DNA of 38,035 bases from Candidatus Wolfebacteria bacterium (GCA_024654025.1 JANLIR010000008.1:1-38035); one strand, 5' to 3'; counted from the first letter of the stretch, positions 2,545-27,754 are shown. Translations and numbers: made by a program. The notes: generated by a model not told the origin, from the letters alone.

Positions 2545-2790
2545 CAAATTAAGTATAACAAAATAAATTTCTACCGCAATATTAACAATCTTTATCTAAA
2601 TTCCACTATTTTCTCCCTCTTCTTTTTTCTATATACGCCAACCTTTATCAATGTTTCTCTATTTATATCTATAAATACTTTTTTAGATAATAGATAATCC
2701 CGTTGGAGCTGAGGGAGGAGTGTCCCGCTTTTGTCTCCGGCTCGCCAGAGCAACAAAATCGAGAGTGTCGGAGATTCCGCCAGCTTTCTG

Positions 2791-4140
2791 TTACGATACG
2801 GATAAACCAGTGGGATTGGCTGGCGGAATAATATCAGATGACCCCGAAACGTATTCATACGCGCCCCGATCCCAGACGCCGTCAGTGCCCCTTACAACGC
2901 CAGTCAGATCACTTTCATAGATTGCACTAAGTGCTAAGCCAGCGAGTGCTCCAGACAAGCGGAAGTCGCCATTGGCAGAATCTACATATGGGTCGCTACC
3001 GAAAGGAAGATCTGTGTCGTGCTCCCCTTCCGCGTTTCCGGATCCGCATTGGATCATCGTGTTGTAATCGGAATCCGCCATTTCTGTGATTGTATAGTTT
3101 TTGCACCTGTACCAAAGATTATTATAGACAGCATTGCTGTTCCCTTCATATAAGTGATACGAGGCGTTTATCCCGCGATGATTGAACACGGAGTTGTTGT
3201 AAATTTTCCAGTTGTACGCTTGCGCTGCCGCTGACCTCGTAGTAAAAATACCGTTGTTCACGCCTGTATAAATCGCAGAAGTGCTGTCGTTCCAGAACAC
3301 CATATTGCCGTATATTTCCCAATTGTAATCGTCCCCGGTAAGATTAACCACAACGCCGGTACCTTCTATGTCCTCCCATACATTGTAGCGAATAGTATAG
3401 TAATCGCCATAATTATCGGACCATCCTTCGGCGTGAACGCCGGAAGTTGACCGATTCCTGGCGAACCAGTTATATTGCACAAGCACGTTTTGCCAGTTTC
3501 TTGTCAAGAAAAACGTTCGGGTGGAATCATGCAGATAAGAATACTCAAGTGTAAAATTCGACACTGCCGTGTTTCCGTAAATATGATCCGCCGCGTCCGA
3601 GTCCGATACTTCAGTGGTATCAAAAGCAAACTCACTATGGCGTATAGCTATGTTGCTTGGAGCATTTGTCATAGTGAACAGAGTATCGTAGGTTGTATTA
3701 TAAAATTTTATTCCGTGTCCGACTTTCCAACTCGAAGGGCCACCGCCGGTAATTCCATCAATATCCCAATATCCGGTCGTAACTGTGGCCCTGGCGATAA
3801 CCGCTTGGCCATCGCCATACCCGGAGTCCCATCCAGTATCCGTGCCGTGAGCGCCGCTTGTCGCTTTTTTAATGTAAATGTAGGCCGTCCCGGATACTGC
3901 CGTATTGAGCGTAACAGCGTTATAAGAACCAACAGCTAAAAATATCGTGTCTCCGCGAGCCGCAAGGTTTTCCGCCGTTGATAACTGATCGCAAGCGCTC
4001 CCCAAATCCCAGTCGGAACAAGTGCTTCCGGTTGCTCCATCTCGGACATATAAATTCGCGGCTTGGGAGTTTTTTGCCCAGCCGAAAAGGCCGAGAAATA
4101 ATATTGCGAAAATTATTTTAAATTTTGAAAATTTGTTCAT
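2791..4140 (-). CDS. Exported right-handed beta-helix protein with C-terminal IIPPANPTGLSVS tail
   Basis: 449 aa; signal peptide ending NSQAAN; repeated NxxVxNN/YNN-type beta-helix coils; GAYEYVSG then tail. Confidence 0.85.
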   Translation of the reverse strand: MNKFSKFKIIFAILFLGLFGWAKNSQAANLYVRDGATGSTCSDWDLGSACDQLSTAENLAARGDTIFLAVGSYNAVTLNTAVSGTAYIYIKKATSGAHGTDTGWDSGYGDGQAVIARATVTTGYWDIDGITGGGPSSWKVGHGIKFYNTTYDTLFTMTNAPSNIAIRHSEFAFDTTEVSDSDAADHIYGNTAVSNFTLEYSYLHDSTRTFFLTRNWQNVLVQYNWFARNRSTSGVHAEGWSDNYGDYYTIRYNVWEDIEGTGVVVNLTGDDYNWEIYGNMVFWNDSTSAIYTGVNNGIFTTRSAAAQAYNWKIYNNSVFNHRGINASYHLYEGNSNAVYNNLWYRCKNYTITEMADSDYNTMIQCGSGNAEGEHDTDLPFGSDPYVDSANGDFRLSGALAGLALSAIYESDLTGVVRGTDGVWDRGAYEYVSGSSDIIPPANPTGLSVS

Positions 4141-4178
4141 TGGAAATTGTTTGAAAATTGATAATTAAAAATTGAAAA

Positions 4179-5564
4179 TTATAAAACGCTTAGTCCCGTT
4201 GGCACGGCGGGCGGGGTGGTATCGCCGCCGAAAACGTATTCATACACTCCGATGTCGGGAACGCCTATTATCGGGTTGCCTAAAATATCCGCGGCCAGCC
4301 CAACGTCAACTCCAGCATTGATAGCCGGGCTTCCGCCATTTAATCTGAAATCTCCAGCCGCACTGTCAAAAAATTGCGGGTCCACCTGGATGTTCCCGTT
4401 TCCGGCATAAAAATACCCGACGCCCGGCGCCCACAGCGAGTGGTCCGGGGGCGTAGGATCGGAGTAAACGTTGTAGACCGGCGAAGGGTTGTCGTTATTT
4501 GTGGGATGCCGGCCGGTAAAAATGTTGTTTTTTACATCGGGAGAAAAGAAACTTCCAAAATATGTGTCATGGAAAACATTGTTATACACTCTCTCAGGCC
4601 GTAAAGCAGTCCCCGGGTGAGTTTTATAAACTCCGGATCTGATGTCTGAAAATACGTTATACAGAACATCAATATTGCCGAAATTGTTGACATTGTCCGC
4701 CGTTGTCGACATTATTCCCTGTCCGTCGATATTTACGACGCGATTATTTCTGAAAACAAGATTAAATGGCCCGCTTGGAGGCCTTATTTGTAAAACATCG
4801 TTATGAACTCCCGTTATCCACGGAACATCCAACAAATCGTGAAAGTAAGAGAATTCTACGGTCAAAGTGCCCATGCCACCATATTTGATTTGGTCTTCAT
4901 AGGCCGTTTGTTTGAAATCGCTATGGCTTACAAGAGCATTGTTTGAATTAATGAGAAGCCCTGTTCCCCACGATCCAGTCCTTTCCGCTTCATATTTTAT
5001 ATTCTTTAATTCAAAAAAATCCGCGGCCGACCGCACGTTAATATTATAGCCGGTTTCATCGGTAAGATTAACGGTGAACTTTGATGCATCTTTTCCGTCA
5101 ATTGTCACATATGGCTGCCGCACGATAATATTGTCGGTTATAAGAACCGCTCCGTCACGGCCCGGCTCAGTGGACCTTTGGATCGTAATTCTTTGCGAAG
5201 CTACCCCCGCCTTATTGACATCCAGAACCGTTGAATAAACCATATTGACTGCTCCGCCGTCGATATGCACATTGTCGCCCGCCTGAACAGAGTTCCAATT
5301 TATTTGGTTAAGTTCGTTCCAGGCGTTTTCCCAGTTGCTCCCGGTGGAATTATTTCCGCTTTTTGAAACATACCAATCGGCCCCGTATGCTGGCGAGACC
5401 GGAGCAAGACTGAAAAAAATGGTAAAAATAAAGAAAATAAATCCGAAAGATAAAAACTTTTTGCGGCCAGCAATGGGATAAACCGTCCGGGAACTTTCCG
5501 CCCGGCCGAAAAGGCCAAGAAGGGTTATCGAGAGGAAAATGATTTTTATTTTATGCCTTTGCAT
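4179..5564 (-). CDS. Exported right-handed beta-helix protein with C-terminal DTTPPAVPTGLSVL tail
   Basis: 461 aa; two consecutive signal-peptide-like hydrophobic segments; beta-helix coils; GVYEYVFGG then tail. Confidence 0.85.
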   Translation of the reverse strand: MQRHKIKIIFLSITLLGLFGRAESSRTVYPIAGRKKFLSFGFIFFIFTIFFSLAPVSPAYGADWYVSKSGNNSTGSNWENAWNELNQINWNSVQAGDNVHIDGGAVNMVYSTVLDVNKAGVASQRITIQRSTEPGRDGAVLITDNIIVRQPYVTIDGKDASKFTVNLTDETGYNINVRSAADFFELKNIKYEAERTGSWGTGLLINSNNALVSHSDFKQTAYEDQIKYGGMGTLTVEFSYFHDLLDVPWITGVHNDVLQIRPPSGPFNLVFRNNRVVNIDGQGIMSTTADNVNNFGNIDVLYNVFSDIRSGVYKTHPGTALRPERVYNNVFHDTYFGSFFSPDVKNNIFTGRHPTNNDNPSPVYNVYSDPTPPDHSLWAPGVGYFYAGNGNIQVDPQFFDSAAGDFRLNGGSPAINAGVDVGLAADILGNPIIGVPDIGVYEYVFGGDTTPPAVPTGLSVL

Positions 5565-5585
5565 TTCGTTGTAGGTTGTCAGTTG

Positions 5586-7841
5586 TTAGTTGACAGTTAA
5601 TCCCTGGGGCGCGGCGGGAGGAGTAGTATCTGCTCCTGAAGCTGCCCCGTTCCATCCTGCCAGACGCGCCATCAGCCACCATAAAGCCTTGGCTTTTCTA
5701 ATATCAAGAGCATCGTTTGCATGGTCGCCCGCGTAAGTGTTAGGAGTAACGCTTTCACTGTAATCTGGATTGCGTAAATACTGGCCGCTGTTTATATATT
5801 GAGAGGTGTTGGTATTGTTCCAATTTTCAATATCCGCTTGGTCAAACAAAATACCGCTATTGGCTGAAGCGGCCTGGCGAATCATATCATTCCAACGATT
5901 CATGTCCGCGCCGTAGGTTGTATTGCAGTCGCTGACAGAGGTAGTGTACAAAAATTTGGTCGAGTTAACTGTTGAATCGGTATTAAAATCCGTAAGAGCG
6001 TTAAGATACAGCTGCAAGTCGGCATCGCCGAAAGGATGGCCGATTTCGCCGGTAGCATATGCCGGATTGCACATGTGATACGACCAACCGTAAATGGAGG
6101 CGCTAACGGGATAACCGAACACCGCAGCCGCCTGTCTGATGGTATTCTTCTGCGTTGTCTTAGCCGCGTCATCGGTCCAGTAAGTACTGGCGCCGCCGAA
6201 TTCAGACCAGGAACTGTAGGCGGATGAATACTTGCCGGTCAAATCTCTCAAAGAATTATCGTTAATAAACGAACCGGGGTTGTAAGCAACATCAGCGCTG
6301 TATTTGGAATTTTGAGTCTCGAGAAGTTGAAACCCGTAGTGGAATTGACGTGCATGCGATTGTCCGAAAACGCTTGCCACAAGGCGGCGGCTTTTGATTT
6401 GTTCAATCCAATAGTCAGGAATTATATTAAAATCATCAACGGCTCTGTGGTCGGCGACAATGAACGGCGAGGAAGAAACAGAATTTACATAAAAAGAAAT
6501 TAAAAAATCATCGGGATTGGAATTCCCCAAAGAATCAACACATCTCACATAGTAATTATAGCTCCGGCCGTTTTGCAAACCAGTCAGAAACGCGGAATGC
6601 AATGTGCCGCCCGTAGTTGAAAAAGTATTCATCATTGATAAATATGGAGCTCCGGCAGTTGTTGAATACCGGCAGGCGGCGTTTTCATTTGTTGTCAAAG
6701 ATAATGTCGCTTGAGTTGTGCCGGCGCCAAGAGTTCCGGTTGGAGAACCTCCGGAACGATAAGGAGGGATTGTGTCTTGCGGAGGCGGCGGAGCGGAACC
6801 GTTATATTCGTCCGCTCCGATATCCCAAGAGCCTGCTCTGATTTCGCCGTCAATGTCAGTTGAAAAAGATATGGCTGAATCCGATGACAAATCAATTCCG
6901 GCATCCTTAGCTGCGCTATCACTTGAAGATAAATGATAATTTCCGTTTGTCGAATCGCTAAAAGCGGCAGCTTGATTTATTTTGTTTCCAGTACCTCCCC
7001 AATCGTCTGATGTGGAATCGTCAGATATATTATAGCTAGCGGCCCAACTTTGGCCGGTGTTGGCGCGATATGCCTGTCCTGTTGCCGAAACGCCAATATT
7101 ATTAATTAAAGTTCCTGCGCCAATGCTGTTATAAAACGCCCTTCCGGCATTGGCTATACCGGTGTTGTTGTAGAAATACGCATTAACATCGGCATCGTTT
7201 AAGAAGAAAGCTTCGGCCCCGGAATTGGTAGAATTGTTAATGCCTATATTATTCCATAATTTAACAGTTAACGGTCCAACGTAATAGATATCATAGATGT
7301 CATAGCCGGAATTATAGTCATTTTGGCCGAAGCTGTTGGAAATCCGCACTTCCCCGGCTCCGCTTGTATTATAAATAAAATAAATACGATTATTGTCGGT
7401 GATGCGGATGGATATGCCGTCAATGCGTACATTCTCTTCAGAGATGATAAGCGGAGTCGTTCTGCGATAGCCCGGTCCCCATGTGCCGTCATGGCGGGCT
7501 TGGGGTGTTGTGTAAATATTAATATAACGGCTGGCATCGGTGGTCCATCCGTTTATAGTGACCGCAGACGCATCCGGATTAATCCATGTTCCGTCTACTT
7601 TAGCGGTGGCAATGGTATCGGCGCAAACCAGATCGCCCGTTGCACAAGAACCAAAATTTATTCCTCCGTAAGCGGATTCCCAAGCGGAGAGTGAAGTAAA
7701 ACAATTTGAATAACCAGAACAATCCTGGCGGACGAGACCGACTACCTCGGTAGCGGCACGGGAATTATTGTTCATGCCAAAAAAAATCGCTATTAAAAAT
7801 AAATTTCTCCAGCTGAAAAATTTTTTGAAACAAAATTTCAT
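5586..7841 (-). CDS. Exported beta-helix protein with FN3-like domain, uncharacterised C-terminal domain and DTTPPAAPQGLTVN tail
   Basis: 751 aa; N-terminal VGLVRQDCSGYSNCFTSLSAWESAYGGINFGSC module shared with the pilin fusion at 16383..17984; DIGADEY closing the helix; FN3-like TIPPYRSGGSPTGTL...; then a separate ~270 aa domain. Confidence 0.8.
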   Translation of the reverse strand: MKFCFKKFFSWRNLFLIAIFFGMNNNSRAATEVVGLVRQDCSGYSNCFTSLSAWESAYGGINFGSCATGDLVCADTIATAKVDGTWINPDASAVTINGWTTDASRYINIYTTPQARHDGTWGPGYRRTTPLIISEENVRIDGISIRITDNNRIYFIYNTSGAGEVRISNSFGQNDYNSGYDIYDIYYVGPLTVKLWNNIGINNSTNSGAEAFFLNDADVNAYFYNNTGIANAGRAFYNSIGAGTLINNIGVSATGQAYRANTGQSWAASYNISDDSTSDDWGGTGNKINQAAAFSDSTNGNYHLSSSDSAAKDAGIDLSSDSAISFSTDIDGEIRAGSWDIGADEYNGSAPPPPQDTIPPYRSGGSPTGTLGAGTTQATLSLTTNENAACRYSTTAGAPYLSMMNTFSTTGGTLHSAFLTGLQNGRSYNYYVRCVDSLGNSNPDDFLISFYVNSVSSSPFIVADHRAVDDFNIIPDYWIEQIKSRRLVASVFGQSHARQFHYGFQLLETQNSKYSADVAYNPGSFINDNSLRDLTGKYSSAYSSWSEFGGASTYWTDDAAKTTQKNTIRQAAAVFGYPVSASIYGWSYHMCNPAYATGEIGHPFGDADLQLYLNALTDFNTDSTVNSTKFLYTTSVSDCNTTYGADMNRWNDMIRQAASANSGILFDQADIENWNNTNTSQYINSGQYLRNPDYSESVTPNTYAGDHANDALDIRKAKALWWLMARLAGWNGAASGADTTPPAAPQGLTVN

Positions 7842-7871
7842 AATCTTTTTTATCAGTATAACAGATTATCT

Positions 7872-8170
7872 TTAAGAAGATTTTTTGATCTGGTCCAGGA
7901 TTTGATTCAATTGATCTTGCAGATAGTTGATCTGTTCCAGAAGATTGAGTATCCTTCTTGTTTTCGGCCCCACATATCCATAAGCAGAGTCGGATTCATT
8001 AGCTATGCCGTATTTGATCTGAAGTTTCTGGACTGCTTGTTTGGTTAATTGTCCGTAGTATCCGGTGATCAGCTTTTGGGGATAGATATCGGGGTATTGG
8101 GAGAGAAATGATTGGAGGTTTTTGACTTCGGGATTGGAGAGGCCGGGGTAGAGATACTTTGTAAATGATA
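7872..8170 (-). pseudogene. Out-of-frame peptidoglycan-binding domain plus coiled-coil-like tail of the 7999..10695 gene
   Basis: Reverse-strand translation VSFTKYLYPGLSNPEVKNLQSFLSQYPDIYPQKLITGYYGQLTKQAVQKLQIKYGIANESDSAYGYVGPKTRRILNLLEQINYLQDQLNQILDQIKKSS*, aligning with the in-frame C-terminus of CDS 1..2544. Frameshifted or phase-variable rather than necessarily dead. Confidence 0.8.
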
Positions 8171-10695
8171 CTGATTGATATTGATTGATATTGATTGATA
8201 TTAGTGGATATTGGGATACTTGTTGCCTGCCCTGAGCCTGCCGAAGGGTTGGTTGATATTGGTTGCGGTTTCGTCGGCGAAAGAATACTAATCGGCAATC
8301 CGGCGCTTGCTACGGCAGCAGATACAGAACAAGCAGAGGTTGTTTGCGATAAAGAAGAAGTGGCTGATTCGGTTGCGTCTCCATTTCTGTATTTGATTGT
8401 ATATGAATATGAAGTATTGCAAGTAAGTCCTGTGTCAGTCCAGGAATTGGTTGTTATCCAACCGGAATTATTTGAATTTGTTGTATTGAGGAAATAATAG
8501 CCAGAGGAAGAAGAAGACGCGTTATTGAAAGAATCAACTGATAAAGCATTGGAAGTTTGGCTTGGAGTAGCGGAGAAGTTAGTGGGACTAGGAGTAAGAG
8601 TGTATTTGCTGGAAGTGGCTCCGTATGAAGAGATATTTCCTGCCAGGTCTGTGAATCTGACATCATAGGTGTATTGGGTGTTGGAGGTAAGAGATGAGTC
8701 AGAAGTGGTAGCAGTGGAAGTGGAAACAGCTGACAAGGTGGTGGTGGAGTTTCTTCTTACTTGCCATTGGTAAAGGCCAGAACCACTCTCTGTGATTGTT
8801 GAAGTAGAAGGCCTGTTGATGATTATTGAGGAAGAAGTGATGGTTCCGAATGTTGATGACGCGATTGTTCCTGTGGGAGCGGTGGTGTCAACTCCAAAGG
8901 AATTAGTTCCTGAATTGAATTGAGTAAATGATGATGTTCCGTTGGAATAATCCAATAATCTGGCTTGCCATTTGTAGTTTCCGTCTGGAAGAGAAGAAAC
9001 AGTAATTGATGAGGTGGCAGTGGCACCAGAAGAAGAAGTGGCGGTGGAAGTGGTGAAGCTGGAAGCGGTGTAATTAGGAGCATTAGAAAACGTAGAGGTG
9101 GACAATTCTACTTGGAGTTTTTCCAAATCATTGAGATCAGAGTCGGAGATAATACCCATAAAACATGCGGTAGATGTAGTTATCCAATAAGTGGAGGTGG
9201 ACATAGCGCTGGAACAACCTGAAGTGTATTGGCCTAAACTAACTGGAGTATTGGGAGCGGTGTTGACGAATTCATCCGCTCCGATGTCCCAAGCAGAACC
9301 CCAAGGTCTGGTTTGTCCGTCAATGTCGTCAGTAAAACCAATTTCGGAGACGCTTGAGGTGGCGGAGTCTTTAGCGGCAGTGTCTGATGAACGAAGGTGG
9401 AAATCAGAAGTGGAGGTAGAAACAAACGCCACAATTTTACTGGTTGTTGCGAAGGTGGCGTTGGGCGCGTCTCCAGCGATGTCGGAAATGTTGTAATTGG
9501 AACCTGCTGGGAAACTCCCGGAGTAACCATCTGTAGAACTTTGAGCAATATTATTCTTATGCAACCCCGTATTATCCGACCAACTAAAATACCCACCATA
9601 CGAATTATAAACAGTATTGTTGTAAACATAATGGGTACTTGCACGAGTGCGTATTCCATAATTAACATAAGAGCCGTTGATAAAATCATAAACGATATTA
9701 TTCCAAACCCTAGAAGTAAGACCAGTAACCTCAAGTATTATTCCGCTATTATTAGCGGCCGTCCCTGACAAAACTCCTTTTATAATATTATCGGAAATCC
9801 TCACATCTGAACTGCCAGCATCAACATACGCTTGAAGAATGCCAGCGTCCCAAGCACTATTAGTAGTTAATCGTATCTGTAGTCCTTCCACACGCACATA
9901 GTTTTCCCGATTTGTAAGAATTGATGCTAATACATATTTCGTGTCATCCCACTTCCCGCTATGCCTTGCCGCAGTAGTAGTATAAATTTTTATGTAGTTG
10001 GTTGAGGTAGTTGTCCAACCGTCTATTGTAACCGCAGTCGTATCCGCGCTTGTCCAAGCTCCATCTATTTTAGCAGTGGCTATGGCGGAATCGCCTGCGT
10101 TGGATATGACTATATAATTAGAACCGTTTACCTGAAGTTGTTCGCCTGATTGAAAATTTGATTTGCCTCTGGCAGAAGTTTGACCAGAAGTATTAAGAGT
10201 TGAAGTGACTATTAGGGTTAATTGGGTGCTTGATTGGATAGACAACACTTGTTGCCAGGTTTGGGATGATTCAAGCCAGATATAATCATCTGCTGTTAGT
10301 TCGGTTGTGTATAAGGTTCCGTCTCCGGTAACCGTGGAGGTGGTGTTGGAAAAAGTTGAAGTGCCGGTCAGGATGTTTCTGATGTTTTCCACAAGAACTT
10401 GATTGCTTGTAGTGGATGCGTTATGAAGAACCTTAGCTTTGGTAGTTGTGGATACTGAACCAGTAACAGTTGCTCCGTCTGAAACAGTTCCGGTTGTGGA
10501 AGAAACGGAATAAACCTTGGTGGAAGAAACTGTTAAATCGGTATTAATTGCCGCTTCCCAAGAAGACAGGGTGTTATAATCCCCTCCTGATTGCATTACA
10601 GATGAAACGAATTCAGTGGCGGCAAATGTTTTGGGGATTAAAAAAACCAGGCCTAAAATAAATACGGTTAATAAAAATATTAGCTTTCCGCGCAT
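7999..10695 (-). CDS. Exported beta-helix protein with FN3-like repeats; C-terminal peptidoglycan-binding domain present but out of frame
   Basis: 898 aa ORF; signal peptide; beta-helix and FN3-like part closely parallels CDS 1..2544. After the 10-bp repeat the homologous PG-binding sequence continues in another frame down to a TAA at 7872-7874. Confidence 0.8.
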   Translation of the reverse strand: MRGKLIFLLTVFILGLVFLIPKTFAATEFVSSVMQSGGDYNTLSSWEAAINTDLTVSSTKVYSVSSTTGTVSDGATVTGSVSTTTKAKVLHNASTTSNQVLVENIRNILTGTSTFSNTTSTVTGDGTLYTTELTADDYIWLESSQTWQQVLSIQSSTQLTLIVTSTLNTSGQTSARGKSNFQSGEQLQVNGSNYIVISNAGDSAIATAKIDGAWTSADTTAVTIDGWTTTSTNYIKIYTTTAARHSGKWDDTKYVLASILTNRENYVRVEGLQIRLTTNSAWDAGILQAYVDAGSSDVRISDNIIKGVLSGTAANNSGIILEVTGLTSRVWNNIVYDFINGSYVNYGIRTRASTHYVYNNTVYNSYGGYFSWSDNTGLHKNNIAQSSTDGYSGSFPAGSNYNISDIAGDAPNATFATTSKIVAFVSTSTSDFHLRSSDTAAKDSATSSVSEIGFTDDIDGQTRPWGSAWDIGADEFVNTAPNTPVSLGQYTSGCSSAMSTSTYWITTSTACFMGIISDSDLNDLEKLQVELSTSTFSNAPNYTASSFTTSTATSSSGATATSSITVSSLPDGNYKWQARLLDYSNGTSSFTQFNSGTNSFGVDTTAPTGTIASSTFGTITSSSIIINRPSTSTITESGSGLYQWQVRRNSTTTLSAVSTSTATTSDSSLTSNTQYTYDVRFTDLAGNISSYGATSSKYTLTPSPTNFSATPSQTSNALSVDSFNNASSSSSGYYFLNTTNSNNSGWITTNSWTDTGLTCNTSYSYTIKYRNGDATESATSSLSQTTSACSVSAAVASAGLPISILSPTKPQPISTNPSAGSGQATSIPISTNINQYQSISISIIYKVSLPRPLQSRSQKPPIISLPIPRYLSPKADHRILRTINQTSSPETSDQIRHS
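8161..8220. repeat. 10-bp tandem repeat (gatattgatt-type units) inside coding sequence
   Basis: ctgattgata ttgattgata ttgattgata ttagtggata ttgggatact, preceded by gtaaatgata. Confidence 0.9.
8225..8250. repeat. Same family as 30212-30237, in beta-helix gene linker
   Basis: gcctgccctgagcctgccgaagggtt; encodes NPSAGSGQA. Confidence 0.75.
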
Positions 10696-10721
10696 AAATT
10701 AATTGTAGCAAATTTCGATTG

Positions 10722-12023
10722 TTAAACAACGCTTAGTCCTGTTGGTGCGGCAGGAGGAGTAGTGTCGCCAGAAACATATTCATATGCTCCAAGGTCGGGA
10801 AAAGAACTTGCCGATCTGCTATTTCCCTCAATATCAGTAGGAACTGTGGCGGTAAGATTAAGACCAGCGTCAATTGGAGCGGCTCCGGTAACTAAATGAT
10901 AGTTTCCATTTGCTTTGTTAATGTAATAACTATCTGAGGTAGCTATATTGTTTATTATTGATAGGCCTATGTTATTTTTAACATCGGTTGTCCCTGCTGA
11001 GATATAAACTGCTTTGGAATTCGGCATATCAATTGTATTGTGATAAATTTTCCTTGCGTACCCTGAATCCCCCGCCCAAAGATTGTCAACATAAATTCCA
11101 TAATGGTTCGCATTAATATTATAAATTAGATTGTTATATATCGTAGATCCGGTTCCTGCCCGTATCGCAGTATAACCAGTATGAATAATGTTGTTTTTGA
11201 TTATGTGGTTTGGATTTGAATCCCATCCTTTGCCGTCAGTATGATTGGATTGATTCACTTCGATTGCCCCAACCGTGGCACCAATATCTGGAGTGTTATA
11301 AATGAGATTGCCATCAACTGTAATATCATGAGTTCCAGGTTTTAACTCTATAGCTTCATCTACTATATTATAGATGGTATTATTTTTTACTAAAATATTA
11401 TTAGTATTGTCTTGTAATCCTCCTGAACCGGTTCCTATGTATATTCCTTCGCCGTTATATTGCCATTGACGAGTATCGTGGATTAAATTATTTTGAATCG
11501 TAATGTAAGACGAATTATTGTGGATAGAAACGGCGTCTTGTCCAACATGATGCACGCTGGAATTTTCTATTATCATATGATCCGAATTTTCTATCCAAAT
11601 TCCCTGATTATAATTTGTTATTTCAAAGCCAGAAAGATTCATATAACTAACGCCGCTAAATTTCATTCTTCCTGTATTGATTCCATTTCCCAAAAGTTTG
11701 GGAGTATGGCCGCTATAGGCTTTAATCTCTGTGCTTTTGGCACTATTGCCGCTTGGGCCTGTTATGGTAAAACTTTCGTTATAAGTCCCGTTTTTCACAA
11801 TAAGATTGTCTCCGCCTGAAATTATACTTATGCCATATTGAATAGTGCACCATGGATTAGATTCTGTTCCGTAAGAAGAAGAATTATTACAAACAGGAGA
11901 TCCGGAATTATCAACATAATAATTGGCGGCTTGGGAAATTTTAATAAATATTAAACCAAAAATCCCTGTGAAGATAGCGAGAAAAATAATAAACTTTTGA
12001 AAATTTCTAACTTGAAAATTCAT
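10722..12023 (-). CDS. Exported right-handed beta-helix protein with DTTPPAAPTGLSVV tail
   Basis: 433 aa; signal peptide; many IxNNxIYN coils; DLGAYEYVSG then tail. Confidence 0.88.
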   Translation of the reverse strand: MNFQVRNFQKFIIFLAIFTGIFGLIFIKISQAANYYVDNSGSPVCNNSSSYGTESNPWCTIQYGISIISGGDNLIVKNGTYNESFTITGPSGNSAKSTEIKAYSGHTPKLLGNGINTGRMKFSGVSYMNLSGFEITNYNQGIWIENSDHMIIENSSVHHVGQDAVSIHNNSSYITIQNNLIHDTRQWQYNGEGIYIGTGSGGLQDNTNNILVKNNTIYNIVDEAIELKPGTHDITVDGNLIYNTPDIGATVGAIEVNQSNHTDGKGWDSNPNHIIKNNIIHTGYTAIRAGTGSTIYNNLIYNINANHYGIYVDNLWAGDSGYARKIYHNTIDMPNSKAVYISAGTTDVKNNIGLSIINNIATSDSYYINKANGNYHLVTGAAPIDAGLNLTATVPTDIEGNSRSASSFPDLGAYEYVSGDTTPPAAPTGLSVV

Positions 12024-12059
12024 TTATATTTTTAAAAGTTATGGGTTGATGGTTGCGTG

Positions 12060-12091
12060 CCCCGTAGCGAGTTTTACTCTGCTACTTGGGG
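12060..12091. repeat. Intergenic GC-rich hairpin
   Basis: CCCCGTAGCGAGttttaCTCTGCTACTTGGGG; stem with small bulges, between two beta-helix genes. Confidence 0.7.
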
Positions 12092-12092
12092 G

Positions 12093-13475
12093 TCAGTTAA
12101 TTGTCAGTCCTGTCGGCGCAGAAGGAGGAGTGGTGTCAGGAGAGCCGCCTGTTAGCGGGTGGGGATAGGTATAAGCGGTATAGGGATACGTCGCGTCTCC
12201 TGTTTGCGGAGCGCGATTATAGTAGTCGCGATTCGCCTGAATATGCGCGGATGTATAGCATGTGCCAGTTTCCGGCGAAGCGTCGTACACGCTTGCCGTA
12301 ACCGGCGATCCATTTAATGTGTTGTCCCAATAATAGATTGGGGCTGGTATTCGATTTCCACCTTGACCTGCTTGTTCAAAGCATTGATACCCACGGTACG
12401 TTTCTGTTGGAGATTTGTTTCCATCATATGTATACGCGCTATACCCTCCTTGGGAATTATCCCAAGTGCCGTTGCATTGCCCTCTCGTCGTATAAAGAGA
12501 GCCAGAAGTTGTTTGTCCGTACCTGGTAAACCAATTCTCACATGACCGGTAATTCGTCATTTGTACACCACGAGAACCCCAATCCCCGATAATTGTATTA
12601 TTGTAAATTTTCCCTGTTCCGCCACGGAACTGAAACATCCATACAGGACGCACCCGCTCCGTGCCACTGTACTGAGTCATGGTATTCCCATATGCTTCAA
12701 ACGCCAGGCAGCTATCTCCTGAATCAGGACCGTGAGTTGCGATACTCCAATTTACCAAGGTATTGTAACGAACGACGTATTTTCCTCCGTCACCACAGTC
12801 AAACGCGTCCGAACTACCTCCAGTGGAATCCTCAAAGTATGAGTCTTCAAAATATACGAAAGTGTTATCTCCCCATGTGGTAGGAATCTTCCAGTTATCT
12901 GCAACGGGAACGGTAGTTATCTTTCCGCGGACAAGAGTACCTCCTATGTTTCCTCCCGAATTTCCCGTAGTAACCCGAACGTGGTCTATTAATCCGGTCG
13001 CTCCGTTGGTAGCCGTGAAAGATCTTCCATGGGAAAGAGTTTGGTCAACATATATATGGTCAAAACGGAAAACAGTTCCAACTCCATTTGCTTGTATCAT
13101 ACCCCATGTTGATCCGCCACCGGTTTCAGTAGACCCGACACGGAACCCACTAATTCTATAAAACCCGGCAGTTCCGCCAACGCTAAATAACGTCGTATAT
13201 GTCGGATATGCGCCTCCATTGTTTCTGAGGTATGTACCGTTTTCGTTTAGCGCCTTTATGGTCAATGGTTTTGTGACGCTTACCCCAGAACTCCAATCCC
13301 AAGTCCCATCAGGACACACAAGCGTATCGCCTGCCGTTGCCGAGGATACGTAAGAAGCCACTGTTGTCCGAGCGCAATCCGGGAGGTTAGTCGTCGCTGC
13401 CCAAGAACTTTCCGCCCAGCCGAAAATTCCAAATAAAATGAATAAGAGACCGGTAATAAGTAATTTAATTTTCAT
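12093..13475 (-). CDS. Exported beta-helix-like protein with DTTPPSAPTGLTIN tail
   Basis: ORF track start is 13523; the internal MKIKLLITGLLFILFGIFGWAESSWAA (ATG at 13475) is a better start because it begins directly at the signal peptide. Confidence 0.8.
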   Translation of the reverse strand: MKIKLLITGLLFILFGIFGWAESSWAATTNLPDCARTTVASYVSSATAGDTLVCPDGTWDWSSGVSVTKPLTIKALNENGTYLRNNGGAYPTYTTLFSVGGTAGFYRISGFRVGSTETGGGSTWGMIQANGVGTVFRFDHIYVDQTLSHGRSFTATNGATGLIDHVRVTTGNSGGNIGGTLVRGKITTVPVADNWKIPTTWGDNTFVYFEDSYFEDSTGGSSDAFDCGDGGKYVVRYNTLVNWSIATHGPDSGDSCLAFEAYGNTMTQYSGTERVRPVWMFQFRGGTGKIYNNTIIGDWGSRGVQMTNYRSCENWFTRYGQTTSGSLYTTRGQCNGTWDNSQGGYSAYTYDGNKSPTETYRGYQCFEQAGQGGNRIPAPIYYWDNTLNGSPVTASVYDASPETGTCYTSAHIQANRDYYNRAPQTGDATYPYTAYTYPHPLTGGSPDTTPPSAPTGLTIN

Positions 13476-13512
13476 AATTTTATTTACACTACTAATAATA
13501 GCCTTGCAATTT

Positions 13513-14793
13513 CTACAATTCATCTGCTCCGATATCCCAAATAGATCCCCTGGTTTGTCCGTCTATGTCAGTAGTAAAAGCCAAATTGGGGTCTGCGGAT
13601 AAATCAGTTCCGGTATCTTTGGCGGAAGTATCGGTTGAAACGAGATGAAAGTCGCCAGTGGAGGTGGAAACAAAATTTACTATTTTACTTGTTGTCGCGA
13701 AAGTAGCGTTAGGAGCGTCTCCAGCGATATCGGAGATGTTGTAGTCGGAGGAGGTTGCAAAAGTGCCGTTATATCCATCATTTGCACCTTGCACAATATT
13801 ATTTTTTGCAAAATAATTCACTCTGACATTTATAACAATACCATCTACACTATTATAAATAGTATTGTTATAGCTGTGTACAACCATGTTATAGCCCGTG
13901 TCAGCACCAAAATAAATACCCATGCCTCTGGTCCCATTTTTAAAATCATAAATAATGTTATTCCACAAAAAATTATTGTTTGAACGAGCGCCGGAACTGA
14001 TCAGTCCTGTAATGTTCTGGCTTCCTGCAGTTAGCGTGCCAGTTTTAATTATGGAGTTAGAAATTCGCAATTCTGAATTAACATTATCAACAAAATTGAA
14101 TATCCCATAAGTGGAGACCGCGGAACTATTCGAAGCCTTAATTTGTAAGCCGTCTATTTTTGTGAATTCTTCCCTCACCCATACGGCGCTACCGTCGGCT
14201 GAGAGAGTTACTTCTAATCTGTATTTCCCCGTATCCCATTTCCCGTTATGCCTTGCTGTGGCAGTAGTATAGATATTGATGTAGTTAGTTGAAGTAGTTG
14301 TCCAGCCTACAATAGCTACAACCGTAGTATCCGCACTTGTCCAAGAGCCGTCAATTTTGGCGGTAGCAATTGCAGAATCTCCCGTATCGGATATTTGGAA
14401 ATAATTGGTGGTGGAAGCGGTTACTCGCCATTGATCGCCTACTTGAAAAGAATAGGTGGAGCTGGAGATAGAAGCGATAAGGATTTGAGTGGCTGTGTTG
14501 TGTTTGGAAACTCCCGTTATCTCGGTTGATGTCGAACTTCGCCATAAAGTAACGCCAGCGGCGTCAGCGATTGTCCCAGTTACTGAACCAGAGAAAACTT
14601 TTGTGGTTGAGGTTGTTAGATCGGTATTTATAGCCGCTTCCCAAGCGAATAGAGTGGCATAATCCCCTCCCGTCTGTTGAATAGTGGAGACAAATTCAGT
14701 GGCGGCGAATGCTTTGTTGCTTATTCCAAAAACCAGCAGAATAAATACAATTAGAAATATTATTTTTTTAAAATTTATAACCTGAAAATTCAT
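13513..14793 (-). CDS. Exported right-handed beta-helix protein without the tail (ends DIGADEL)
   Basis: 426 aa; signal peptide; module TEFVSTIQQTGGDYATLFAWEAAINTDLT shared with 1..2544 and 7999..10695. Confidence 0.85.
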   Translation of the reverse strand: MNFQVINFKKIIFLIVFILLVFGISNKAFAATEFVSTIQQTGGDYATLFAWEAAINTDLTTSTTKVFSGSVTGTIADAAGVTLWRSSTSTEITGVSKHNTATQILIASISSSTYSFQVGDQWRVTASTTNYFQISDTGDSAIATAKIDGSWTSADTTVVAIVGWTTTSTNYINIYTTATARHNGKWDTGKYRLEVTLSADGSAVWVREEFTKIDGLQIKASNSSAVSTYGIFNFVDNVNSELRISNSIIKTGTLTAGSQNITGLISSGARSNNNFLWNNIIYDFKNGTRGMGIYFGADTGYNMVVHSYNNTIYNSVDGIVINVRVNYFAKNNIVQGANDGYNGTFATSSDYNISDIAGDAPNATFATTSKIVNFVSTSTGDFHLVSTDTSAKDTGTDLSADPNLAFTTDIDGQTRGSIWDIGADEL

Positions 14794-14820
14794 TGAAAAT
14801 TGGAAATTTAAAATTATAAA

Positions 14821-16377
14821 TTATGATATGGACAGCCCTGTCGGCACAGCGGGAGGGGTGGTGTCAGCCGGAACTCCAGAAACATATTCATACGCGCCAC
14901 GATCCCATGTTCCGTCAGCGCCACGGATATTTCCGTACATATCCAGACGGGAATCGAACGTGCCGAAAAACGTATCAGCGGACTCGTTCCACCATGATTG
15001 TGCCGCTAAGTTTAATCCTGCCGCTGTTGGAGCGACCACCCTATAATCATCTTTGGTATAGTCTACGAATATGCTGGATGATAATCCAGTTTGTGCGTTC
15101 GTTCCTCCGGGCGCGCCATATCCACCGGAAGCGTGATACCCATGACCTGTCTGCCTATTGCTGGTAGAGTTATTGCTGTTGTAATATAGATTGTTGTAGA
15201 GGTAGTTCTCAGCCACTACAGAATAACCAGATGCTATATGGTAGCGTATCTGCGTGAACTCCGCGCCAGCATCGGTCAAAGAGTCTCGAAGATTAACATG
15301 AGTATTGTTGTAGGAACTAACGTAAGAAAACTCAGGTGTTGCGGCTACCGCTTCTGCTCCTGCGACAATGCCGTTATTAAACCCACGATTTCCTTCGGTA
15401 CAATCACCTACGCTTGGTAGGCACACTCCTGTTTGTCCATACTTATTGTAGATAATATTTCCATAAAACCTTACCTGACGAAAATTCTCTCCATATAAAA
15501 TCGCCTGACCTTCATTATGAATAAACTTATTCCATCGTACTACGATATAGTTTGGCAGGTCAGAACCAGCGCCGGGCCAGTGGAATTGAAGCACTTGTCC
15601 GTATGGCGCATAGGGACAATTACCCCGAACGCCCGGTCCACAATAAGGACGCCGCCTTCCAAGCCTTTCTACAACACTCCTTTCAATCAAGACATACTTT
15701 GAGTTTCCGAACTGCATTCCATCAGTAGTACAGTTTTGAAAGTATGAGTTTTGTATTTTATAATGATGTCTATTGACGCCTGAAACACGAAGGGCTATCG
15801 TATCATCCGAACCTAAAATTCCTTCCTGATCTCTGGCAGCATTATAAACGTGGACATACCTTATAGTAATATTACTCGAATTTGTTATCTGTACATATCC
15901 AGCGTGGAGTAAATGAGTGTTAAGGCTGACTTTTATTCCATAATCGAGGGTGTTGGTACTGGGTACTATATGAGTTCCGTTTCCGTCGATTGTATAATAA
16001 CTGGTTGCGAAAATTATCGGACCGGTGAAGATTGCCTGTCCTGTTCCATAAGAATCGCTCCATCCGGTTGACGTTCCGTGATCTGCAACGGTGGCCTTCT
16101 TAATCGTAATCACGAGAGTGCCATTAACCGCATCATCAAAGATGTGTCCGGCACCATATGATCCGGTAGCAAGGTAGTAGGTATCTCCGCGGGTAAGGGC
16201 GGAGGGGAGACTGCCGTAGGCGTTTGCCCAGTCAGATCCGTTTCCAGAGGCTCCTTGCCGCACGTAGCGGTTGGCTGCTTCGGAACTTTCCGCCAAACCA
16301 AAAAGGCCGAGAAATACTGCCAAAAAAATTAAAAAAATTTTGTTCGGAGATTTATAGATACTCATAAAAATCGGCAA
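14821..16377 (-). CDS. Exported right-handed beta-helix protein with DTTPPAVPTGLSIS tail
   Basis: 518 aa; signal peptide GLFGLAESSEAAN; beta-helix coils; RGAYEYVSG then tail. Confidence 0.87.
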   Translation of the reverse strand: MPIFMSIYKSPNKIFLIFLAVFLGLFGLAESSEAANRYVRQGASGNGSDWANAYGSLPSALTRGDTYYLATGSYGAGHIFDDAVNGTLVITIKKATVADHGTSTGWSDSYGTGQAIFTGPIIFATSYYTIDGNGTHIVPSTNTLDYGIKVSLNTHLLHAGYVQITNSSNITIRYVHVYNAARDQEGILGSDDTIALRVSGVNRHHYKIQNSYFQNCTTDGMQFGNSKYVLIERSVVERLGRRRPYCGPGVRGNCPYAPYGQVLQFHWPGAGSDLPNYIVVRWNKFIHNEGQAILYGENFRQVRFYGNIIYNKYGQTGVCLPSVGDCTEGNRGFNNGIVAGAEAVAATPEFSYVSSYNNTHVNLRDSLTDAGAEFTQIRYHIASGYSVVAENYLYNNLYYNSNNSTSNRQTGHGYHASGGYGAPGGTNAQTGLSSSIFVDYTKDDYRVVAPTAAGLNLAAQSWWNESADTFFGTFDSRLDMYGNIRGADGTWDRGAYEYVSGVPADTTPPAVPTGLSIS

Positions 16378-16382
16378 AAAGG

Positions 16383-17984
16383 TTAATTTCGACTTTTCAC
16401 TACTGAAGGCGTCAATATTAAATTACTCCCTATTTCTAATATATTAACATTTTGGCCTCCGTCTTTGCCACCTATTTTATCCACGCCTTTGTTTTTGTCG
16501 GATTCAAATATGGAGGTCAGTTCCCATTTCTTGCCGTCGGTGACAAAAGTATAATATTTGCCGTTTTCTGATTCATTTGTGGGGTCAATGGGCAAAACAG
16601 ATAAGGTATTTCCTGAGATTTTACCAAAATCCACCGGTATCCATCCGATTCCGTTTACTTTCTGAAATGTTGAGGAAGCAAAACATCTGTATGCCCAGCC
16701 AGAAGGAGGAGCAGGCAAAGAAGAATGATTGGTACAATTTCTGTTGTCATCCGGCAAAGACAGGAAAATATCTTGAAGCTGGTCAGCGCCGATGTCCCAA
16801 ATATTAAATCTCCGAAGTCCATCAATGTCATTACTGAATGATAAATTAGGGTCGTTTAAAAGATTCACCCCAGCTCCTCTTGCGGCAGTATCAGAAGGAG
16901 AAAGATGAAAATCATCGCCAGCTTCATTTACAAATTGAACTGTGGCGGCGTTTATGGGATTTGAACCGGGCGCATCGGTCTGCGATGGGCCGGAAAGGTT
17001 GTTAGTGGAGGAGGCATTAAAAATTCCGCTATAATTATAAGTATTGTTATAGGAAATGTTGTTTTTGGCGAGAACCGTTCCTGAATTGCGGTAAAATCCA
17101 TAAACTGAATTATATACGGTGTTGTTATAAATATAGACTTTTAAAGATATGTTATTGACTATTCCCCTTCCGTTGGAGCCATTAATAAAATCATAGACAA
17201 TGTTATTCCATATGTAAACGGTGGCATCTCCTTCAAGATCAGATACTATTATTCCCCAGCCAGAACTAGTTCCTGACAGAACCCCTCTAACGATATTTTC
17301 TGAAATCCTAATATCGGATGGATTATTTACGGATAGTACGGAAACGGCATCACAAGTTGTGCAAGACGTTAATGTATCTTTTATTTGCAGCCCCTCCACC
17401 CTTACAAAATCCTCGTTTATAACCAATGAATCTTGATTTGTTGTTTCTAACCGATATTTCGTATCGTCCCACCTCCCGTTGTGTCTTGCTTCAGAAGTGG
17501 TATAAATTTTAATGTAATTGTTCGGCCCGGTTATCCATTCGGCTATCTGTACATAATTTGTATCAGCTGTACTCCACATACCATCAATCTTGGCTACCGC
17601 TACTTTATTAGCGCAAACTAAATCGCCTTGAGCGCAAGAACCGAAATTAATACCTCCGAATGCCGTAACCCAAGCAGCTAATGAAGTAAAGCAGTTTGAA
17701 TATCCTACGCAATCCTGGCGGACCAAACCGATTACGGCATTTGAAGGATCGGCTTGAACAATATTGGAAGTTTTAAAAATATCACCATATTCCTTGTACG
17801 CCCTTATCGCGGTATCAATCGCTTTTAAATCAGTTGTCCTAAGCGCATCTCTTGATTGTTTGAAAATTTCCGAAGGATTTAAAATCATAACCGTAACAGT
17901 GCCAACAATAGCCAAAACACCTACAACAATAAGAAGCTCGAGGAGGGTGAAGCCATTATTTCGCGAAGATTTGTTGACAAACAT
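16383..17984 (-). CDS. Type IV pilin-like protein with inserted right-handed beta-helix domain
   Basis: N-terminus MFVNKSSRNNGFTLLELLIVVGVLAIV is a class III (prepilin peptidase) signal; middle is beta-helix homologous to 5586..7841; C-terminus ...YRCFASSTFQKVNGIGWIPVDF...LPIDPTNESENGKYYTFVTDGKKWELTSIFES is pilin-like. Confidence 0.87.
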   Translation of the reverse strand: MFVNKSSRNNGFTLLELLIVVGVLAIVGTVTVMILNPSEIFKQSRDALRTTDLKAIDTAIRAYKEYGDIFKTSNIVQADPSNAVIGLVRQDCVGYSNCFTSLAAWVTAFGGINFGSCAQGDLVCANKVAVAKIDGMWSTADTNYVQIAEWITGPNNYIKIYTTSEARHNGRWDDTKYRLETTNQDSLVINEDFVRVEGLQIKDTLTSCTTCDAVSVLSVNNPSDIRISENIVRGVLSGTSSGWGIIVSDLEGDATVYIWNNIVYDFINGSNGRGIVNNISLKVYIYNNTVYNSVYGFYRNSGTVLAKNNISYNNTYNYSGIFNASSTNNLSGPSQTDAPGSNPINAATVQFVNEAGDDFHLSPSDTAARGAGVNLLNDPNLSFSNDIDGLRRFNIWDIGADQLQDIFLSLPDDNRNCTNHSSLPAPPSGWAYRCFASSTFQKVNGIGWIPVDFGKISGNTLSVLPIDPTNESENGKYYTFVTDGKKWELTSIFESDKNKGVDKIGGKDGGQNVNILEIGSNLILTPSVVKSRN

Positions 17985-18793: not shown

Positions 18794-20176
18794 TTACTTT
18801 TCTTTAATAATGACCATCAAATCCGCGACGTTAAAACTTTTTTGTTCGGCGAAAATCAAGTCGCCTGTTTTTTCAAAAAAATGGAATGAATCGTGGTTTT
18901 CTAAAAACTTTTCCGGCTCCAATTTTAATTTTTTCGCTTTTTCCACAGTCTCTGAATCGACTATGGCTCCGGCGGCTTCGTTGTTATCATGGCCGTCAGA
19001 GGCAAGAGCCAACGCAACAATGTTATTAGTAATTAGTAATTGGTTATTAGTTATTAGTCCCAGAGCGGCTTCCTGATTTCTGCTTCCTTTGCCATTTTTT
19101 TTAGCGCCTTTTAGGGTTACGGTTGTTTCACCGGCTGCCAAAAGTACTCCGCCGGGCCAAATTTCATCTACCAATTTAACCAGCGCTTCTCTTGCTTCTC
19201 CGTCATAAGATAAAGAAAAAATTCTCGAGCTCAATTCCATTTCTTTCGCTTTTTCTTCCATCGCCAAAACCGCGTCGTTGTTGCATACAAAAAGTATATT
19301 TTTTATTTTTTTGAAATACTTCTGGTCTTTGGGAGTTTCGAGCAGATCTATTTTTTTTAAGCTAATGCCATATTTTTTTAAAACATTTTCAGCTTCTTCT
19401 TTGGTTGTCATATCAAAAACAGTCGGACCCGAAGCTACCGTAGACATATCGTTGCCGATAACATCGGAAACTATTAAAGATACAACTCGCGCTGGATAAG
19501 CAATCTTAGCAAACCCACCGCCTTTGAACTCGGAAATATGCTTTCTAACAATATTCATTTCTTTAATGTCCGCTCCGCTAGAGGTAAGTTCTTTAAAAAT
19601 AACGGCGGCTTCCTTTAATTCTTTATCAGACGCGCAAGCAAGCGCAGAGCCGCCTCCGCAAATAAAATTTATAAGAAGATCGTCTTCGTTTAAATTTTCG
19701 GCGAGAGTTATTATTTCTTTGGTGGCTTTAATATTTTGCTTTGACGGCAAAGGATGAGTGCCCTTGTAAATTTTCAATTTTACCTGCCCGCCGAAGTCTT
19801 GGCGCAGGCGGGAATTTTCAATTTTAAATTCTGGCTCTTTAACATCAATTACTATGCCCTTGGCCAGCTTATCTCCCAGTTTTTGAGCTAAAACAGCGCT
19901 TGCCAAAGCAGAGCCTTTTCCGATTCCGACAATAAAAATTCTTTTGAATTCCTTTAAATTTATTTTTATCCCCCAAAGCCAGCTGGTGTAGTCCCCTTTT
20001 TTTTCATAAGCCGGATGGTGCAGCTCTAAAATATCGCCTTCGACTTTAATTCGGCTATCAACGGCTTTTTCAATATCAATCGCGTTAAGTCCGGCTTCGG
20101 CAATCAAAAGCGCCTTTTCTCTTAAAGGATTTGTTGCTAATTCCTCAAAATTTTTTATGTGAAAATTATTTTTCAT
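18794..20176 (-). CDS. Glycerate kinase, MOFRL/GckA-type
   Basis: FICGGGSALACASDKELKEAAVIFKELTSSGADIKEMNIVRKHISEFKGGG; VSLIVSDVIGNDMSTVASGPTVFD; AAGETTVTLKG..GSRNQEAAL; ALASDGHDN. Confidence 0.9.
   Translation of the reverse strand: MKNNFHIKNFEELATNPLREKALLIAEAGLNAIDIEKAVDSRIKVEGDILELHHPAYEKKGDYTSWLWGIKINLKEFKRIFIVGIGKGSALASAVLAQKLGDKLAKGIVIDVKEPEFKIENSRLRQDFGGQVKLKIYKGTHPLPSKQNIKATKEIITLAENLNEDDLLINFICGGGSALACASDKELKEAAVIFKELTSSGADIKEMNIVRKHISEFKGGGFAKIAYPARVVSLIVSDVIGNDMSTVASGPTVFDMTTKEEAENVLKKYGISLKKIDLLETPKDQKYFKKIKNILFVCNNDAVLAMEEKAKEMELSSRIFSLSYDGEAREALVKLVDEIWPGGVLLAAGETTVTLKGAKKNGKGSRNQEAALGLITNNQLLITNNIVALALASDGHDNNEAAGAIVDSETVEKAKKLKLEPEKFLENHDSFHFFEKTGDLIFAEQKSFNVADLMVIIKEK
19783..19812. 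repeat. Palindromic element in glycerate kinase gene
   Basis: cctgCCCGCCgaagtcttGGCGcaGGCGGG, encoding RLRQDFGGQV between EFKIEN and KLKIYKGTHPLP. Confidence 0.75.
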
Positions 20177-20984
20177 TAAAAAGTAGTGCGGCTCCTATTA
20201 CCTGCGCCTTGTCTCCTAATTTTCCTTTGACTATCGGCGTCTTTTTGGCTAGAGGCGACATTATGTATTTTTTGGCAACCCTTTTTATAACGTCCATTTT
20301 TAAACTTCCGTTATTTATACCCCCTCCGCCTAAAATTACAATATCAGGATCAATAGTATTTATTAAATTCGCTACTCCTGTCCCAACTATTTTACTCCTG
20401 TCTCCGAATTTAAAAAATGCCTTCTTTCCTCCTAATTCCTCAAAGCTTTTCTCCTTTCCATTTCTCTTTTCTTCTTGAAATATCGTATGCCCAAACTCTC
20501 CTGCGCTATTAGTTTTTCCCTGATACATTTTACCATCTATTATAATACCCCCGCCTATGCCCGTACCAATGGTCAAGCCCACAATGTTTTTATAACCGCA
20601 ACCTGCGCCTAATTTAGCTTCCGCGCGCAAAAAACATCGGCTGTCATTATCGAACTTCACCGGTATTTTATATTTTTTTCCGCCGAGGGCGGATCCGCCT
20701 CTGGCGGAAAAAAAATCCCTTGCGTTCCAGTTATTCAAAAATGGGAGGTTCTGAGCTTTAACCAAAACACCTAAATAACCAACCACACCCGGCAATCCTA
20801 CTCCAATTCCTTTAACATTATTTCCTTTCTCTAATTCCGAAATAATTTTCCCCAATTGCTTTAAAAAATCTTTTTTATTCTTTGAGGTTTTAAATGTTAT
20901 TTCTTTCTTAATAAGTTTATTTTTAGCATCAAAAACCACGCCCTTAATTTTCGTCCCGCCGATGTCAATGCCTATGAAATACAT
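20166..20984 (-). CDS. ROK-family sugar kinase/regulator
   Basis: GIDIGGTKIKGVVFDAKN; GIGVGLPGVV; GLTIGTGIGGGIIIDGKMYQGKTNSAGEFGHT; VILGGGGINN. Confidence 0.9.
   Translation of the reverse strand: MYFIGIDIGGTKIKGVVFDAKNKLIKKEITFKTSKNKKDFLKQLGKIISELEKGNNVKGIGVGLPGVVGYLGVLVKAQNLPFLNNWNARDFFSARGGSALGGKKYKIPVKFDNDSRCFLRAEAKLGAGCGYKNIVGLTIGTGIGGGIIIDGKMYQGKTNSAGEFGHTIFQEEKRNGKEKSFEELGGKKAFFKFGDRSKIVGTGVANLINTIDPDIVILGGGGINNGSLKMDVIKRVAKKYIMSPLAKKTPIVKGKLGDKAQVIGAALLFNEK
20679..20708. repeat. 30-bp palindromic element in ROK gene
   Basis: TCCGCCgagGGCGGATCCGCCtctGGCGGA; palindromic outside the two triplets; encodes SARGGSALGG. Confidence 0.92.
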
Positions 20985-27610: not shown

Positions 27611-27754
27611 CGTATCATTAAAATACAGAAAAAATGGCTTTTTTTCAATCCCGTAGTAATCCGCCATAGACGGGCTATTAAGGGATTAATCCCCATGCCT
27701 TTTGATAAAAACTGTCCTTTCCTTCTCTACGGTCCTCTTTCTAGCACACGCTAA

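Follow-up and report, generated by a model that had tools for sequence, protein, structure and literature searches.

C-terminal tails encoded at the locus

The window analysed here is a stretch of 38,035 nucleotides from a genome of Candidatus Wolfebacteria (GCA_024654025.1 JANLIR010000008.1:1-38035; this genome is G000 below). Six genes on its minus strand end in a common tail of the form D-x-x-P-P-x-x-P-x-G-L-x-[V/I]-x-stop: gene 14821-16377 (518 aa; tail DTTPPAVPTGLSIS plus stop at 14821-14865), gene 12093-13523 (476 aa; DTTPPSAPTGLTIN plus stop, 12093-12137), gene 10722-12023 (433 aa, Pfam Beta_helix and choice-of-anchor Q; DTTPPAAPTGLSVV plus stop, 10722-10766), gene 5586-7841 (751 aa; DTTPPAAPQGLTVN plus stop, 5586-5630), gene 4179-5564 (461 aa, choice-of-anchor Q; DTTPPAVPTGLSVL plus stop, 4179-4223) and gene 2791-4140 (449 aa; DIIPPANPTGLSVS plus stop, 2791-2835). 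A sequence-only reading had described these C-termini, and all six are present in the sequence, with stops at 2791, 4179, 5586, 10722, 12093 and 14821, each one residue past the V/I. As that reading also noted, the next gene often begins within tens of base pairs of the tail stop (21-69 bp in five of the six cases). The designation of the genes as six paralogs holds for the common tail, whereas paralogy of the rest is loose: the bodies are beta-helix proteins, choice-of-anchor Q proteins and others without a family, and a G(A/V)YEYV stretch ahead of the tail is common to only four of the six.

An orphan copy of the tail on the same strand (DTPPSAPTGLSII plus stop, 2683-2724) follows the stop at 2791 in the same reading frame and has no gene of its own; it is probably left over from a former 3' end. 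Two further tail genes of G000 are located elsewhere in the genome, on contig C2.

Gene 14821-16377 encodes a signal peptide at one end and the tail at the other; neither a membrane anchor nor a wall anchor was found in it. The other five tail genes of the window are cargo genes of the same kind. The tail-less neighbours, all on the minus strand where a strand was assigned, mostly carry an anchor element: gene 1-2547, which runs off the window, has PG_binding_1 near the C-terminus; gene 16383-17984 combines a prepilin-type N_methyl start, a membrane element, with a body that resembles a beta-helix; and gene 7999-10695 is frameshifted near its 3' end, with a PG_binding-like C-terminus continuing in another frame. 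Only 13513-14793 has neither a wall-anchor nor a membrane-anchor element. This distribution fits tags that replace anchors. The frameshift site in 7999-10695 adjoins a short inserted repeat encoding NPSAGSGQAT.

The tail is conserved as a peptide

A protein-level search of G000 without the stop constraint found the motif in ten places, nine of which are tails and one a complete fibronectin type III (FN3) domain on contig C6. All nine tails stop exactly three residues after G-L. In the eight tail genes of this genome, the conserved residues are identical at codon positions 1 and 2 (except for leucine, with its own set of codons), while the third positions agree only to 29-57%. Such drift at fixed residues means that selection acts on the peptide: the tail is conserved as protein, not as DNA, and is not a product of chance. 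The same drift rules out a DNA-level repeat or recombination site as the cause, and it bears out the earlier suggestion that the tail is selected and did not arise by independent truncations. An FN3 remainder reachable by read-through or frameshift, which would have spoken against that suggestion, was looked for behind the stops in every frame of the window; there is none, and this explanation was rejected.

The tail is rare and patchy, and nevertheless far more frequent than expected by chance, as had been anticipated: in the phylum sample, a DNA pattern that takes in the stop matches 1 of 380 genomes, and the same pattern reversed, used as a control, matches none; the backward control gave zero matches in every tail scan. 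In the order to which G000 belongs, 6 of 244 genomes match, one of which (G066, DKNPPSEPSGFLLL) has the pattern within a 14-codon frame and was discarded as a chance match. Tails were also found in 8 of 131 genomes of the order of the Moranbacteria genome UBA1362, and a strict-pattern scan of 85,462 species genomes added a small number from Nitrospirota, Deltaproteobacteria and Parcubacteria. A viral hit (L158) was rejected as out-of-frame noise. Where the tail is present, several copies per genome are common (8 in G000, 10 in G621, 7 in G671).

Altogether, 56 tails were collected from 18 genomes and 2 phage contigs. They sit on proteins of unrelated folds (by eye, beta-helices, glycosidase-like, lipase-like and IPT-like proteins). 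Signal peptides, proposed as a companion of the tail, are indeed the rule: an N-terminal hydrophobic segment typical of them, as called by a simple hydropathy test, is present in 44 of the 45 complete frames.

The tail resembles the linker and strand A of FN3 domains

The consensus D-T-T-P-P-x-x-P-T-G-L-S-V resembles the linker and the first half of strand A in FN3 domains that are encoded in cis in the same genomes; in G000, for example, the tail equals the start of DTTPPTIPTNLSAT-AISSSQINLSW. The L and the V/I are fixed in the 56 tails (V in 46, I in 10), and the residues between and after them vary, the pattern to be expected of a strand that buries only one of its faces. As the search patterns fixed the L and limited the next-but-one position to hydrophobic residues (most also allowed F/L/M), only the preference for V/I among hydrophobics is independent of them. 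Judged from its sequence, the tail is best explained as FN3 strand A together with the proline-rich linker that precedes it.

FN3 domains without strand A

Two adjacent genes on contig C6 of G000 (L020) encode proteins with an N-terminal FN3 domain that begins at strand B. The first (L020:4943-5377, minus strand; 145 aa) has an N-terminal transmembrane (TM) helix and a linker directly before the FN3 domain; the second (812 aa) is secreted, with the signal peptide directly before the FN3 domain, and ends in PG_binding_1. We refer to such A-less FN3 domains and their proteins as sockets. Relatives are encoded in most of the other genomes that have the tail. The FN3 part of the 145-aa socket matches Pfam fn3 (PF00041) with 33.1 bits (cut-off 25) over profile positions 16-75 of 84, and most other sockets score at, above or just under the cut-off. 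Sockets match the profile from position 8-16 of 84 onwards, and the tail ends before that point. AlphaFold2 gave six strands, B-G, for the A-less FN3 domain; a complete seven-strand domain including strand A was not encountered. The domain presents itself as an acceptor sandwich without one edge strand, and in many genomes it stands directly after a signal peptide or TM helix. Placing the tail ahead of a socket extended the Pfam match to position 2, but a scrambled tail scored as well, and this gain, which does not discriminate, was dropped as evidence.

The commonest bacterial sockets are TM-anchored or carry PG_binding_1 (e.g., in G227, G218 and G622) or SH3_3 (in G165, below cut-off), whereas those of G621 and G755 carry Dockerin_1. 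In different orders, tail genes are followed by a recurring pair of A-less FN3 genes, one small and TM-anchored, the other secreted (L193:8301-9315 and L200:9923-12108); the small sockets of these pairs share a conserved cysteine pair (CPxGGY ... ESCFS).

Tail and socket genes occur together

The sequence-only reading had raised the question whether the tail co-occurs with one particular membrane protein; it does co-occur with the A-less FN3 sockets. Among the 244 genomes of the order, 6 have the tail pattern and 5 a socket, with 4 in common (hypergeometric probability 2e-7 to 5e-7, a figure that ignores shared ancestry, though G165 belongs to a different family). In six of nine genomes (G165, G218, G227, G625, G726, G755) the tail and socket genes are neighbours, against an expectation of about 1% each (P ~ 4e-10 in a simple random-order model with approximate gene counts); the smallest gap, in G218, is ~7 bp from the tail gene to the socket start codon. 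G218, G227 and G726, the last of the Moranbacteria order, share one arrangement: tail genes, then the small TM socket, then the secreted socket. On the phage contig L156, a tail gene stands directly behind an A-less FN3 gene.

As a control, 16 other genomes of the phylum sample with socket-like FN3 domains and without the tail were considered. Strand A is present in cis in all 12 of the signal-peptide-first FN3 domains shown for these tail-less genomes (e.g., DDTTPPSVVENFSATPGDGEVSLTW), so that in these lineages the strand is provided either by the same chain or by the tail of another protein. The correspondence has exceptions in draft genomes: in G001 both sockets are present and the tail was not found, and in G179 and G623 the tail is present and an A-less FN3 domain was not found. 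Furthermore, A-less FN3 domains occur in dozens of phage contigs without a tail within ~6 kb, and the A-less domain alone is thus no proof of a waiting socket.

Structure models of natural chains that contain both elements did not show docking. In AlphaFold2 models from L019 and L156 (the latter with its intervening TAA read as Gln) the tail is undocked (pLDDT ~25-32), and the A-less FN3 domain folds confidently without it (pLDDT mostly 87-98). As both models were poor outside the FN3 domain, most of both chains was left unmodelled and the alignments had 20 rows, we regard this counter-evidence as weak but real. In a fold search, the L019 model fell among structures of tandem FN3 domains, which added no evidence of docking.

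Proposed mechanism and alternatives

Of the options put forward in the sequence-only reading, the best fit is a beta-strand supplied to an FN3 partner that is incomplete without it: the predicted partner is encoded in the same genome, co-occurs with the tail and is often its neighbour. The secreted cargo would carry FN3 strand A and a proline-rich linker at its C-terminus; the socket, a separate protein with an FN3 domain starting from strand B, would be held at the membrane by its N-terminal TM helix or at the wall by PG_binding_1, SH3_3 or, in some genomes, a dockerin. Once the cargo is secreted, the L and V/I of its tail would fill the open socket edge, completing the beta-sandwich and docking the cargo non-covalently at the surface. 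We consider it probable that the A-less FN3 domain receives the tail in trans in this way, and that the cargo is thereby attached to the membrane or wall. Docking, its geometry and the role in surface display are what we infer here; the tail, its selection as a peptide, the anchored sockets, the co-occurrence and the adjacency are observations.

Alternatively, the tail could be a C-terminal sorting or processing signal for other machinery (a protease, transpeptidase or export factor), with the A-less FN3 domains merely co-inherited. Sortase (LPXTG), PEP-CTERM and type IX signals are likewise common C-terminal elements on unrelated secreted proteins, consisting of a motif, a hydrophobic helix and a basic end, or of a folded C-terminal domain, and served by an enzyme. 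The C-terminal position of the tail, its exact end, the signal peptides of the cargo and the many unrelated cargo folds would all suit such a signal. However, the tails end three residues after G-L, with no hydrophobic segment and basic end following the motif; the helix, basic end or Cys known from sortase, PEP-CTERM and MYXO-CTERM signals, the folded domain and the enzyme are all missing here. The sortase-like recognition tag that had been proposed was rejected on these grounds. Moreover, the tail reads as an FN3 linker plus strand A, and the linked gene encodes an FN3 domain lacking that very strand rather than an enzyme, which makes a sorting or processing signal unlikely.

Strand donation may also be real and serve to build extracellular head-to-tail chains or a matrix of cargo and FN3 proteins rather than to anchor them. 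On four viral contigs (L106, L139, L143, L145), the A-less FN3 proteins themselves have a strand-A-like peptide at the C-terminus, an arrangement that a head-to-tail polymer or a permuted domain would show; such an end is found in 4 of 47 A-less FN3 phage proteins versus 7 of 1167 frames (P 7e-5, for a loose pattern chosen post hoc), which also speaks for strand donation as such. The dockerin in place of a wall anchor on some sockets points in the same direction. Nevertheless, anchoring by TM helix, PG_binding_1 or SH3_3 prevails among bacterial sockets, and those inspected do not end in a tail, so chain formation seems quite improbable as the function of the tail. Finally, that the tails are functionless relics, strand A stumps of FN3 genes split or truncated at the A-B loop, is very hard to maintain: FN3 domains with strand A in cis are present in the same genomes and one copy, the orphan at 2683-2724, is a remnant, but 56 tails on unrelated folds and in unrelated phyla share the same end residue, often in several copies per genome, and those of the eight G000 genes keep their residues while the third codon positions drift.

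Comparison with known systems

In chaperone-usher pili, a strand of another protein fills the gap in an incomplete Ig-like sandwich (donor-strand complementation): an N-terminal extension stands in for the last strand (G), which the subunit is missing, and a chaperone and an usher take part (PMC5625045, PMC10903470). Completion of a sandwich in trans is what we propose for the tail and the A-less FN3 domain as well; here, however, it is an FN3 fold that would be completed, the strand it lacks is the first one (A) and the donor would be a C-terminal tail. No chaperone or usher genes were seen among the window ORFs. In the TasA/TapA fibres of Bacillus, secreted proteins are joined by strand exchange and TapA supplies the first donor strand (PMC10903470). 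There, an N-terminal donor links one kind of subunit into a fibre, whereas here one tail is found on many unrelated cargos and the candidate acceptor is an anchored FN3 domain.

In cellulosomes, a small C-terminal module on many secreted enzymes, the dockerin, plugs non-covalently into an anchored receptor, the cohesin. The dockerin is a folded calcium-binding domain of ~60-70 residues; in our case a peptide of 14 residues would act as the plug, with an incomplete FN3 domain as its receptor. Two of the sockets themselves carry Dockerin_1, and none of the cargo proteins of the window gave a dockerin match.

The principle of donor-strand complementation is thus already known from pili and TasA fibres, and a description of FN3 strand donation with a C-terminal donor and an anchored acceptor was not found in the open-access literature searched. 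It is conceivable, though we would put it slightly below an even chance, that the split FN3 domain serves generally for strand-and-socket display in several small-genome bacterial lineages, in Nitrospirota and in phages: any secreted protein could then be attached, through a C-terminal peptide of 14 residues, to an A-less FN3 domain bound to the membrane or wall. If so, surface attachment of this kind would be undescribed so far. To our knowledge, how small-genome candidate-phyla bacteria retain proteins at their surface is largely unknown; the proposed mechanism, if right, identifies tag, receptor and anchor, and a genome sequence alone would suffice to list the proteins on display. If a natural split FN3 domain reassembles, it would moreover offer a short genetic tag and a matching receptor, both ready for use; split Ig-like domains are already in use as such pairs.

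Other observations in the window

Short insertions are present inside otherwise ordinary genes at 32358-33569, 20166-20984 and 22845-24122 (RQAQGRPEQVEGR, SARGGSALGG and SAKGGSASGG), and an inverted repeat pair (20679-20712 and 22913-22946) is found among them. An isoleucyl-tRNA synthetase-like protein encoded on the minus strand at 24122-27667 has, by eye, an apparent phosphoglycerate-mutase-like insert (LLRHGGANSNDLDI...IVGHGDPLW).
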